A stretch of DNA of 64,000 nucleotides, taken from NCBI GenBank assembly GCA_015066085.1, contig SVPA01000003.1, positions 1 through 64,000 of the forward strand. The letters are read 5' to 3'. The stretch comes from Oscillospiraceae bacterium (GTDB lineage: Bacteria; Bacillota; Clostridia; Oscillospirales; Acutalibacteraceae). How positions within the stretch are numbered: the stretch's first letter is position 1; every line of letters begins with the position of its first letter. Both the position numbers and the translations under genes were made by a program. The notes beneath the pieces were generated by a model. That model did no database searches, was not told the DNA's origin, and saw nothing but the letters and a program-made list of their open reading frames with translations. Of the stretch, positions 41,229 to 44,317 are shown one piece after another.

Positions 41229-42026
41229 TTAAATCTTAAGCATTGAACTTAAAAAGGCGCGAAGACTTTCTGTTTTGGGATTGTCAAAAAGTTCCTTTGG
41301 AGAACCTTCCTCAAGAATGAAACCGTTATCCATATAAATTACACGGTCAGAAACCTCTTTCGCAAAACCCATTTCATGAGTAACTATTATCATAGTTCTT
41401 CCCTGTTTGGCAAGGTTTGCAATAACCTTAAGAACTTCTACGGTAATTTGTGGGTCAAGCGCCGAAGTGGGTTCATCAAAACATAAAATTTTGGGTGAAA
41501 GCATAAGCGCTCTTGCGATAGCAACTCTTTGTTGCTGTCCACCGGAAAGTTCGCACGGATAACTGCTCAATTTGTCACCAAGGCCGACACTTTCGATAAC
41601 CGAGACGGCTTCCTTGTTTAATGCGTCAAAGGCAGATTTTCTTTCCTCTGAAGTTGCCTTGTTCTTCTTTAGTTTCTTTTGCAAATCAAGTTTGGGTGCC
41701 AATAAAACATTATCTAGAACATTATATTGAGGGAAAAGATTAAAAGACTGAAAAACAAGCCCTGTTGTAAGTTGATTTTCTCTTTTTTCTTCCTTTGAAA
41801 GTTTAACTTTTGAACTTGAATCAAATAAAACACGCTCACCGACGCTTATATAACCTGCATCTGCTGTTTCAAGACCCGTAATACAACGAAGTAGGGTTGT
41901 TTTACCGCTGCCTGAAGAACCAATGATTGACAAAACAGTTCCCTCTTCTTGAGAAAAAGAAATTCCTTTAAGTACTTTGGCCTTGCCGAAGTTCTTGCAT
42001 ATATTTCTAACTTCTAAAAGTGCCAT
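41229..42026 (-). CDS. Polar amino-acid ABC transporter ATP-binding protein
   Basis: GSSGSGKTTLLRCI; LSGGQQQRVAIARAL; LCFDEPTSALD. Confidence 0.95.
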   Translation of the reverse strand: MALLEVRNICKNFGKAKVLKGISFSQEEGTVLSIIGSSGSGKTTLLRCITGLETADAGYISVGERVLFDSSSKVKLSKEEKRENQLTTGLVFQSFNLFPQYNVLDNVLLAPKLDLQKKLKKNKATSEERKSAFDALNKEAVSVIESVGLGDKLSSYPCELSGGQQQRVAIARALMLSPKILCFDEPTSALDPQITVEVLKVIANLAKQGRTMIIVTHEMGFAKEVSDRVIYMDNGFILEEGSPKELFDNPKTESLRAFLSSMLKI

Positions 42027-42030
42027 ATAC

Positions 42031-42684
42031 CTAACTCCTAAAATAATTTAATTTCTTTTCTATGTAGCCGAAAAGCAGCGATAATACGCCGTTAAATATT
42101 AAGAAAAATGCGCCCGTGTAAAATAACGGCCAAATAACTCCAACGCCTGCATATCGTTCCGCACACATAAGTATTTCGGCTACCGCAATTACACGCGCAA
42201 GAGAAGTGTCTTTTACAAGAGTAATTATTTCATTGCTCATTGGCGGAACAATTCGTTTAACAACTTGTAATAATACAACCTTTAAAAAGGTTTCGGTACG
42301 CGTCATACCTAAAACCTGTCCGGCTTCGTATTGACCACGAGAAATGCTTTCTATACCACCACGATATATTTCGCTAAAATAACATGCATAGTTTATTACA
42401 AAAGCAATAACTGCTGCCAACATTCTGTTTCTCATCGGAATATTAAGGAGAATTCCCGGAAGATACATTACGACAAAAAGCTGGAGCATCAGAGGAGTTC
42501 CTCTGATGATCCAGACAAATACTTTTGTGAGCCAAGATAGTGGCTTGAATTTTGACATTGAGCCAAATGTAATAATCAAACCGAGAGGTATTGCCATGAG
42601 CAGTGTCATTGCGAATAACAGGCAATTTTCTCCAAAACCGACAAGCAACTCACTTGTTATAGTTGCAAATGATGAACTGGCCAT
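42031..42684 (-). CDS. Amino-acid ABC transporter permease (HisM/GlnP type)
   Basis: IIRGTPLMLQLFVVMY; EIYRGGIESISRGQYEAGQVLGMT; KDTSLA. Confidence 0.94.
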   Translation of the reverse strand: MASSSFATITSELLVGFGENCLLFAMTLLMAIPLGLIITFGSMSKFKPLSWLTKVFVWIIRGTPLMLQLFVVMYLPGILLNIPMRNRMLAAVIAFVINYACYFSEIYRGGIESISRGQYEAGQVLGMTRTETFLKVVLLQVVKRIVPPMSNEIITLVKDTSLARVIAVAEILMCAERYAGVGVIWPLFYTGAFFLIFNGVLSLLFGYIEKKLNYFRS

Positions 42685-42697
42685 TAATTTACCTCAA

Positions 42698-43480
42698 TTA
42701 TTTCTTAACTACCATTACCTGTTGATTTTCCATGTAAGGAATAGTAATGCTCATAGTTGCTTCTCTATCGGCATTGATAGTCATGCCGTTCCAGATGCAG
42801 TCAATGCTCTTAGCTTTGAGCTCTGCTTCTTTAGAGTTCCAGTTAATTTCTACAAATTCTGCTTCTACACCAAGAATTTCACAAACAGCTTTAGCAAATT
42901 CGGTTTCGAAACCAACAAGGTTATTGTCGGCATCAAGATAGTTCATAGGAGCAAAATAAGTGATACCAATTATCATTTTACCTTTGTTCTTAATGTACTC
43001 CCAATCGGAATCTTTTTCAGACTGTTTGAAAGGTTCGAAAGAATCAGTAGCAACGATTCTGTCTTCTAGCTTATAGTTTTTAGCAATCTGTTCAAGTTTA
43101 CCGTTGTCTTTTAAGGTTTTAATAGCTTCGTTAACCTTTGCAGTTACATCGGAGCCTTTTCTAAATGCGATTCCGTAATATTCGGGGCTATAGCCATTGC
43201 CTTCAACAACGAGGTCTTCAAAGTCGGTACCTTCACCGATAGAACCAATAGAAAGCACATAGTCTACGATTGCCGCATCGGCAGTTCCGGATTTTACTTC
43301 CATAAGAGCTTTAGTTTGGGTATCTACAGCAGTGTAAGCATAGTCAGTAAGAGTTTTAGCAACCTCTTCACCCGCAGAACCTTTTTCAGCAACAATAATC
43401 TTTTGAGTTTCAGCTCCACACCCTGCAAAACACATGGTTGCTAAAACAAAAACCATAATAAGTGCGATAATTTTTTTCAT
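42698..43480 (-). CDS. Circularly permuted amino-acid solute-binding lipoprotein (SBP_bac_3 halves in swapped order)
   Basis: Lipobox FAGC; lobe-2 half (KIIVAEKGS...YGIAFRKGSD...LEQIAKNYKLE) precedes lobe-1 half (MIIGITYFAPMNY...SIDCIWNGMTIN...NQQVMVVKK). Confidence 0.88.
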   Translation of the reverse strand: MKKIIALIMVFVLATMCFAGCGAETQKIIVAEKGSAGEEVAKTLTDYAYTAVDTQTKALMEVKSGTADAAIVDYVLSIGSIGEGTDFEDLVVEGNGYSPEYYGIAFRKGSDVTAKVNEAIKTLKDNGKLEQIAKNYKLEDRIVATDSFEPFKQSEKDSDWEYIKNKGKMIIGITYFAPMNYLDADNNLVGFETEFAKAVCEILGVEAEFVEINWNSKEAELKAKSIDCIWNGMTINADREATMSITIPYMENQQVMVVKK

Positions 43481-43524: not shown

Positions 43525-43553
43525 ATTATATATTATCTTTTGAAAAAAGTCAA
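43525..43553 (-). promoter_or_regulatory. Promoter of permuted-SBP ABC transporter operon
   Basis: Minus strand TTGACT-N17-TATAAT. Confidence 0.75.
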
Positions 43554-43582
43554 CAAAATAAAAAAGCAGATTGCTCCGCTTT

Positions 43583-44317
43583 TTATACCAATTCAATTTC
43601 ATATTGTTTTGCAAGTTTTAACAAAGAACCATCTTCAAGCATCTCTTTAATAATTGAATCAAACTTTTCTTTTAAATCTGAACCTTTTCTAAAACCAATA
43701 CCAAATTCTTCAATATTAAGCGTTTTAACTTTTTTAAGGTCAGTATGCACCAAAGTATCAAAAATAATCTTATCTACAACACAACCAGAAACATCTCCAC
43801 TAATTACTGCGTTAAGACATTCTTTTTGGGTTTTGTAAGTTTTTGGAATAGCGTTTTGTTTAGTTACTAAACGTTCAGCAGAAGAGCCTTTCTCAACCGC
43901 TAAAACCATATCAGAAATACCTTTTTCATTATCGTAACTGTTATCATCGGAAAGCATAACCAATATTTGAGAATTTATTGCATAAGGAGTTGAAAAAGAA
44001 ACCTGATCTTCATCATTTATAGTATAACCGTTCCAAATACAATCAATATCTTTGCTGTTTAGCTTGCTAACCTTTTCATCCCAGTTAATAACCTTAAATT
44101 CAACGCTAAGGTTAAGTTTTTGCGCTACAAGTTTTGCAAAATCGGCGTCAAAACCAATCCACTCACCATTACCCATAACTATATGCATCGGCGCATATTC
44201 AGTAATTCCAATTACTATCGTGCCTTTTTCTTCTACATATTTATAGTCCGATTTTTCAAAGCAACCCGCTATAAACAGCATACACGCGCAAAGACAAACA
44301 ACAACTAACTTTTTCAA
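43583..44317 (-). CDS. Canonical amino-acid solute-binding lipoprotein (SBP_bac_3)
   Basis: Lipobox IAGC; KGTIVIGITEYAPMHIV; DIDCIWNGYTIN; FGIGFRKGSDLKEKF in canonical order. Confidence 0.9.
   Translation of the reverse strand: MKKLVVVCLCACMLFIAGCFEKSDYKYVEEKGTIVIGITEYAPMHIVMGNGEWIGFDADFAKLVAQKLNLSVEFKVINWDEKVSKLNSKDIDCIWNGYTINDEDQVSFSTPYAINSQILVMLSDDNSYDNEKGISDMVLAVEKGSSAERLVTKQNAIPKTYKTQKECLNAVISGDVSGCVVDKIIFDTLVHTDLKKVKTLNIEEFGIGFRKGSDLKEKFDSIIKEMLEDGSLLKLAKQYEIELV

Follow-up and report, generated by a model that had tools for sequence, protein, structure and literature searches.

The 64,000-nucleotide stretch of Oscillospiraceae DNA analysed here (contig SVPA01000003.1, positions 1 to 64,000; hereafter the window) comes from a gut bacterium and carries a gene whose product is, with a probability of about 0.88, a functional, lipid-anchored binder of amino acids that belongs to a complete ABC importer and has a circularly permuted polypeptide. 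Judged by its sequence, the protein is a permuted variant of SBP_bac_3 (PF00497) rather than an ordinary member of that family. We divided the canonical SBP_bac_3 chain into segment A (the lobe-1 N-terminal half up to the first hinge strand), segment B (the first half of lobe 2) and segment C (the second half of lobe 2, the second hinge strand and the C-terminal helices). Canonical proteins have the order A-B-C; the window protein reads signal peptide-B-C-linker-A and is called BCA below, with CAB used correspondingly. Its frame is open throughout, from the ATG at 43480 to the stop codon at 42700-42698, and a GGAGG ribosome site is read 5′ of the gene. Coordinates of all features are given in Table 1.

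Table 1. Permuted SBP gene and neighbouring features in the window
Feature	Position	Strand	Remarks
Circularly permuted SBP_bac_3 lipoprotein, 260 aa	42698..43480	-	order lobe 2 - linker - lobe 1
Signal peptide, lipobox ending FAG-C21	43418..43480	-	read from sequence
Lobe-2 half and old C-terminal helices (segments B and C), residues 27-140	43061..43402	-	
Linker between old C- and N-termini, residues 141-157	43010..43060	-	
Lobe-1 N-terminal half (segment A), residues 158-260	42701..43009	-	last element is the first hinge strand
Promoter-like TTGACT-17-TATAAT, 11/12	43525..43553	-	before permuted gene; consensus match only
Terminator-like hairpin of upstream gene	43561..43584	-	between canonical neighbour and permuted gene; consensus match only
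Amino-acid ABC permease	42031..42684	-	13 bases downstream of permuted gene; orthologues adjoin permuted and canonical SBPs
ABC ATPase	41229..42026	-	same operon
Neighbouring SBP, canonical order A-B-C, 244 aa	43583..44317	-	diverged, without the carboxylate-binding Arg position

Using BLASTP against the neighbouring SBP, residues 158-258 match subject residues 23-121 (44% identity, e-value 4e-28) and residues 28-139 match 138-242 (30%, 4e-11), i.e., in reversed order. The PF00497 profile matches two stretches of the protein with 105 bits, well above its cut-off of 26.4; the best one places residues 174-260 on model positions 6-92. Similarly, residues 155-260 fall on positions 10-115 of PDB chain 3hv1 and residues 48-148 on positions 157-256. 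All matches of the window protein in Pfam, NCBIfam and PDB come in two pieces, reversed wherever both pieces are given. The co-linear SBP_bac_3 order (N-half of lobe 1, then lobe 2, then the C-part of lobe 1) is absent from the protein as encoded and appears only after rotation: rotated in silico to the canonical order, the protein gives a single co-linear match to 3hv1 (3-229 on chain 14-256, E 2.3e-28). The halves are homologous to one parent, stand in swapped order and are joined at the old termini in a chain of full length, all of which characterizes a natural permutant.

These results bear out most of what the first-pass annotation had read from the letters. It had described swapped halves in an uninterrupted frame beside an SBP of normal order, and its half boundaries are correct to within a few residues. 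The new termini are where it had put them: the first hinge strand now closes the chain, and the new N-terminus lies at the first lobe-2 strand. The HMM search it had suggested returned two reversed stretches instead of one co-linear match. The ribosome site and promoter that it assigned to the gene are present as consensus matches and are best regarded as candidates.

To obtain a structural model, AlphaFold2 was given an alignment of nine permutants and canonical halves. The structure prediction, likewise proposed in the first-pass annotation, gave a confident model (pLDDT 90.0, pTM 0.81; 72-74 pLDDT in the linker residues) whose secondary-structure elements follow one another as in an SBP; strands 90-107 and 250-259 occupy the places of the two hinge strands. 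In an order-respecting Foldseek search no amino-acid SBP matched the whole chain above a TM score of 0.47, while lobe-sized pieces matched ArgBP at about 2.2 A; the top match was OpuAC (TM 0.42-0.45). A CAB protein was modelled with similar scores (pLDDT 89.3, pTM 0.82), and part of its chain is matched by canonical SBPs, e.g., by 4ohn over 186 columns at 2.8 A. The viral structure library yielded nothing useful, and no solved structure of an SBP_bac_3 permutant turned up. Judging from the confidence scores, the secondary structure and the matches to parts of the chain, the window permutant would fold like an ordinary type II SBP with two lobes. Going by segment order, a cut at the first hinge strand would leave a single covalent crossover between the lobes, with the other hinge strand free-ended, and the lipid anchor, formerly on lobe 1, would now sit on lobe 2.

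The predicted ligand-site residues are kept in the window permutant, namely R239 (carboxylate-binding Arg, lobe 1) and D73 (amine-binding Asp, lobe 2); among 20 BCA proteins, Arg is found in 17 and Asp in all. We suppose that the permutant would close on an amino acid through these two residues and pass the ligand to the permease. The lipobox Cys is invariant across eight aligned permutants. An operon of SBP, permease and ATPase occurs at all nine permuted orthologue loci, each time with the permuted gene directly upstream of the permease, and in relatives a canonical SBP holds the slot which the permuted SBP has here. In one of these species (G109), the BCA operon is immediately followed by another permuted SBP, diverged and accompanied by a permease and an ATPase of its own (L051, 3002-3901, minus strand); segments C-A were detected in it, and its C-terminus is B-like.

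Homologs of the same order, which the first-pass annotation had recommended searching for, occur in nine species with independent assemblies, with identities to the window protein of 80% (G126), 72% (G049 and G168), 69% (G180), 67% (G109) and 59-73% (L035-L037). Three diverged pairs of permutants show pN of 0.105-0.146 against pS of 0.78-0.88, and dN/dS of the remaining pairs is 0.03-0.28. The permuted gene is under purifying selection. The reversed order could in principle be an artifact, either of assembly or of two SBP genes fused in tandem and truncated, as a canonical SBP lies next door and a collapsed repeat is conceivable. However, the length is that of one SBP, as already pointed out in the first-pass annotation against a tandem fusion, and each main segment is present once. 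The neighbor is only 30-44% identical to the permutant and is not its sister on the SBP tree, and two species of the genus g380 share their own permuted protein at 86% identity. Misassembly, against which a check had been advised, is refuted by this conservation across independent genomes, and the probability left to an artifact of either kind is practically negligible.

A further reading is that the permutant is a non-binding relic or decoy, with the canonical neighbor serving the transporter. A canonical SBP does precede the permuted gene in the window and in G126, and since the operon region in the window includes it, the permutant need not be the sole binder in this genus, in contrast to others. 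An SBP of this kind directly upstream of the permuted gene was seen in the window's genus only (also L034, 1302-1946). Yet it is this neighbor that lacks the Arg position and sits on a long branch (0.67), while the permutant keeps both Arg and Asp, and in the other BCA orthologue operons the permutant is the only SBP of its cluster. Hence, we give the relic or decoy reading hardly any probability. From its sequence, the neighbor may bind a different ligand or may have lost binding.

Permutation is not confined to the window's lineage. Searches with profiles of the joined old termini detected permuted proteins across many families of the class, and also in f157, a family of the same phylum outside the class. 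Of 200 genomes in the family of the window, 19 carry a permutant (6 BCA and 13 CAB); altogether, 20 distinct BCA and 43 distinct CAB sequences were collected. Three breakpoints are represented, A/B (BCA), B/C (CAB) and one just past the first lobe-2 strand. Both the recurrence and the number of breakpoints go beyond the first-pass annotation. In the third type, known from two different families (L096, 1276-2118, plus strand; L256, 1201-2064, minus strand), the chain ends just past this strand (EAGSAGE). The exact ends of BCA proteins also vary by lineage, the first lobe-2 helix being lost in some, N-terminal in L110-L112 and C-terminal in L123. A junction-only search able to detect cuts in lobe 1 found no such permutant in 200 genomes of the family and 243 of the class. 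One CAB protein (L257, 102-1106, minus strand; second copy in G446) appears to be held not by a lipobox but by a transmembrane helix with a long spacer of low complexity.

On a tree of 134 rotated SBPs, BCA and CAB require 10 label changes each; on a tree of the 115 adjacent permeases, they require 9 and 7. Restricted to well-supported branches, the forced changes on the two trees are 6 and 6 for BCA and 4 and 5 for CAB. Both are quick trees, and the counts are blind to gain versus loss. A single clade was rejected by the AU test with SBP data (BCA p 8e-7, CAB p 3e-5) and with permease data (BCA p 1.5e-4, CAB p 3e-6), and a single BCA clade was rejected even within the 34-row clade containing the window protein (p 7e-46). 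Joining the window clade with L123 (p 3e-4) or with L110-L112 (p 0.016) was rejected as well. The permutation has recurred in many lineages of Clostridia, both trees rejecting a single origin. In a rival history, permutation happened only once or twice, long ago, and canonical order was regained repeatedly; change counts cannot separate the two. Indeed, a canonical protein (L106 in G031) nests among CAB proteins in both SBP and permease trees, possibly after such a return, and a grouping of the window clade with L082 withstands the AU test (p 0.22). On the other hand, the varying breakpoints of BCA lineages and the scattering of permuted clades, each with canonical sisters of its own, speak against repeated reversal, and many returns need as many duplications as many origins do. 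We consider it unlikely.

A recent case of permutation was found in g380. G636 and G1184, the two species mentioned above, have a BCA protein, whereas G1183 and G1185 have a canonical orthologue. Permuted and canonical proteins are 70-77% identical in each half and are served by the same permease and ATPase (76-92%). In the permuted L123, the linker is made up of the former C-terminal tail and, behind it, a stretch resembling the old N-terminus after the lipobox. This linker and the shared nearest canonical kin of both halves are as predicted by in-frame fusion of two copies with subsequent trimming. By this route, the SBP gene would first be duplicated in tandem and in frame; afterward, the first copy would lose its lobe-1 half behind the signal peptide, and the second copy its lobe-2 half. 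The duplicated state is reachable, since tandem SBP-SBP-permease fusions exist in the window's family (L067, 1503-3857, 785 aa; L068, 4116-6389, 758 aa; both minus strand), each with two nearly identical canonical SBP domains and a permease. No standing duplication intermediate of the window gene was found. A leftover second SBP copy was sought between SBP and permease of the canonical sister L039, where an unrelated gene, dehydrogenase-like by eye, was present instead. SBP and permease are about 1.2-1.8 kb apart in canonical kin of the g380 case (L039, 1045-2225; L212, L213, L214), and the permease lies within about 95 bases of the SBP in the permuted species.

Domain shuffling would offer another route, lobes 2 and 1 being drawn from two SBP genes to form a chimera. 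The halves of the window clade do differ in their nearest canonical kin (L101, L103 and L012 for lobe 1; L017, L014 and L012 for lobe 2). Nevertheless, all of these fall inside one 34-row clade, and in the clearest lineages the nearest kin of one half are also those of the other: L039 for L123, L157-L159 for L126, L138 and L139, L003 for L066, L104 for L114 and L115, and L030 for L117-L121. Thus, a chimeric origin is very unlikely, and duplication within one gene is the route we prefer.

All permutants seen begin in lobe 2 or at its entry, and consequently the anchored N-terminus moves from lobe 1 to lobe 2. We tentatively propose, at somewhat less than even odds, that permutation is a frequent and selected route in amino-acid SBPs of Clostridia, with repeated independent cuts only at or inside lobe 2 always re-anchoring lobe 2, altering the hold over the permease and loosening the hinge. 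The pattern may reflect a tethering advantage or, just as well, a fold that tolerates no other cuts.

Natural circular permutations are usually old and observed a single time in a family. Matched permuted and canonical orthologues on the same transporter in one genus can serve to measure the price of permutation for folding, hinge motion and transport, and a recurrent system can probe the DNA-level origin as well as membrane tethering, the driver proposed for MglB-2. Further, permuted SBPs are natural templates for permuted biosensor scaffolds. Annotation and structure search that depend on order hide such proteins.

Compared with canonical SBP_bac_3 binders of polar amino acids (3hv1, 4ohn, Thermotoga maritima ArgBP), the window protein has the same sequence family, ligand-site Arg and Asp, operon with permease and ATPase, and lipid anchor; what sets it apart are the rotated halves, the relocation of both termini to the first hinge strand and an anchor on lobe 2. 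Searches of mainly open literature for permuted amino-acid SBPs brought up only MglB-2 and the CPSARST survey. They agree with the remark in the first-pass annotation that it was aware of no well-known natural permutant in this family; elsewhere in the SBP superfamily, natural permutation is known. The Treponema pallidum lipoprotein Tp0684 (MglB-2) is a circularly permuted, tethered glucose-binding protein which still binds its ligand, and its authors suggested tethering as a reason for permutation (PMC4990184). Natural permutation of a tethered SBP is common to both; MglB-2, in contrast, belongs to another family with the type I sugar-binding fold, has N-lobe strands moved to the C-terminus and an extra fourth crossover, and was described as one permuted subclass (PMC4990184). 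The family matches of the window protein in Pfam, NCBIfam and PDB are SBP_bac_3 and amino-acid SBPs, which places it outside the type I sugar-binding family. OpuAC and ProX are related to each other, and to molybdate-binding proteins, by circular permutation (PMC2395249). They have a permuted order and the two-lobed binding fold that is predicted for the window protein, but sequence identity is below 24%, the ligand family is another one, and recent events with close canonical partners are lacking; the glycine betaine family gave no match in Pfam or NCBIfam, the similarity being one of fold (Foldseek). Fusions of the GlnPQ type (SBD-SBD-permease; here L067 and L068) likewise contain SBP domains of this family, duplicated in frame, and are a plausible stepping stone, yet both copies are complete, canonical and fused to the permease. 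While natural SBP permutation as such was already known from MglB-2 and OpuAC/ProX, its recurrence, its recency and its matched canonical partners in amino-acid SBPs are new as far as the open literature shows.
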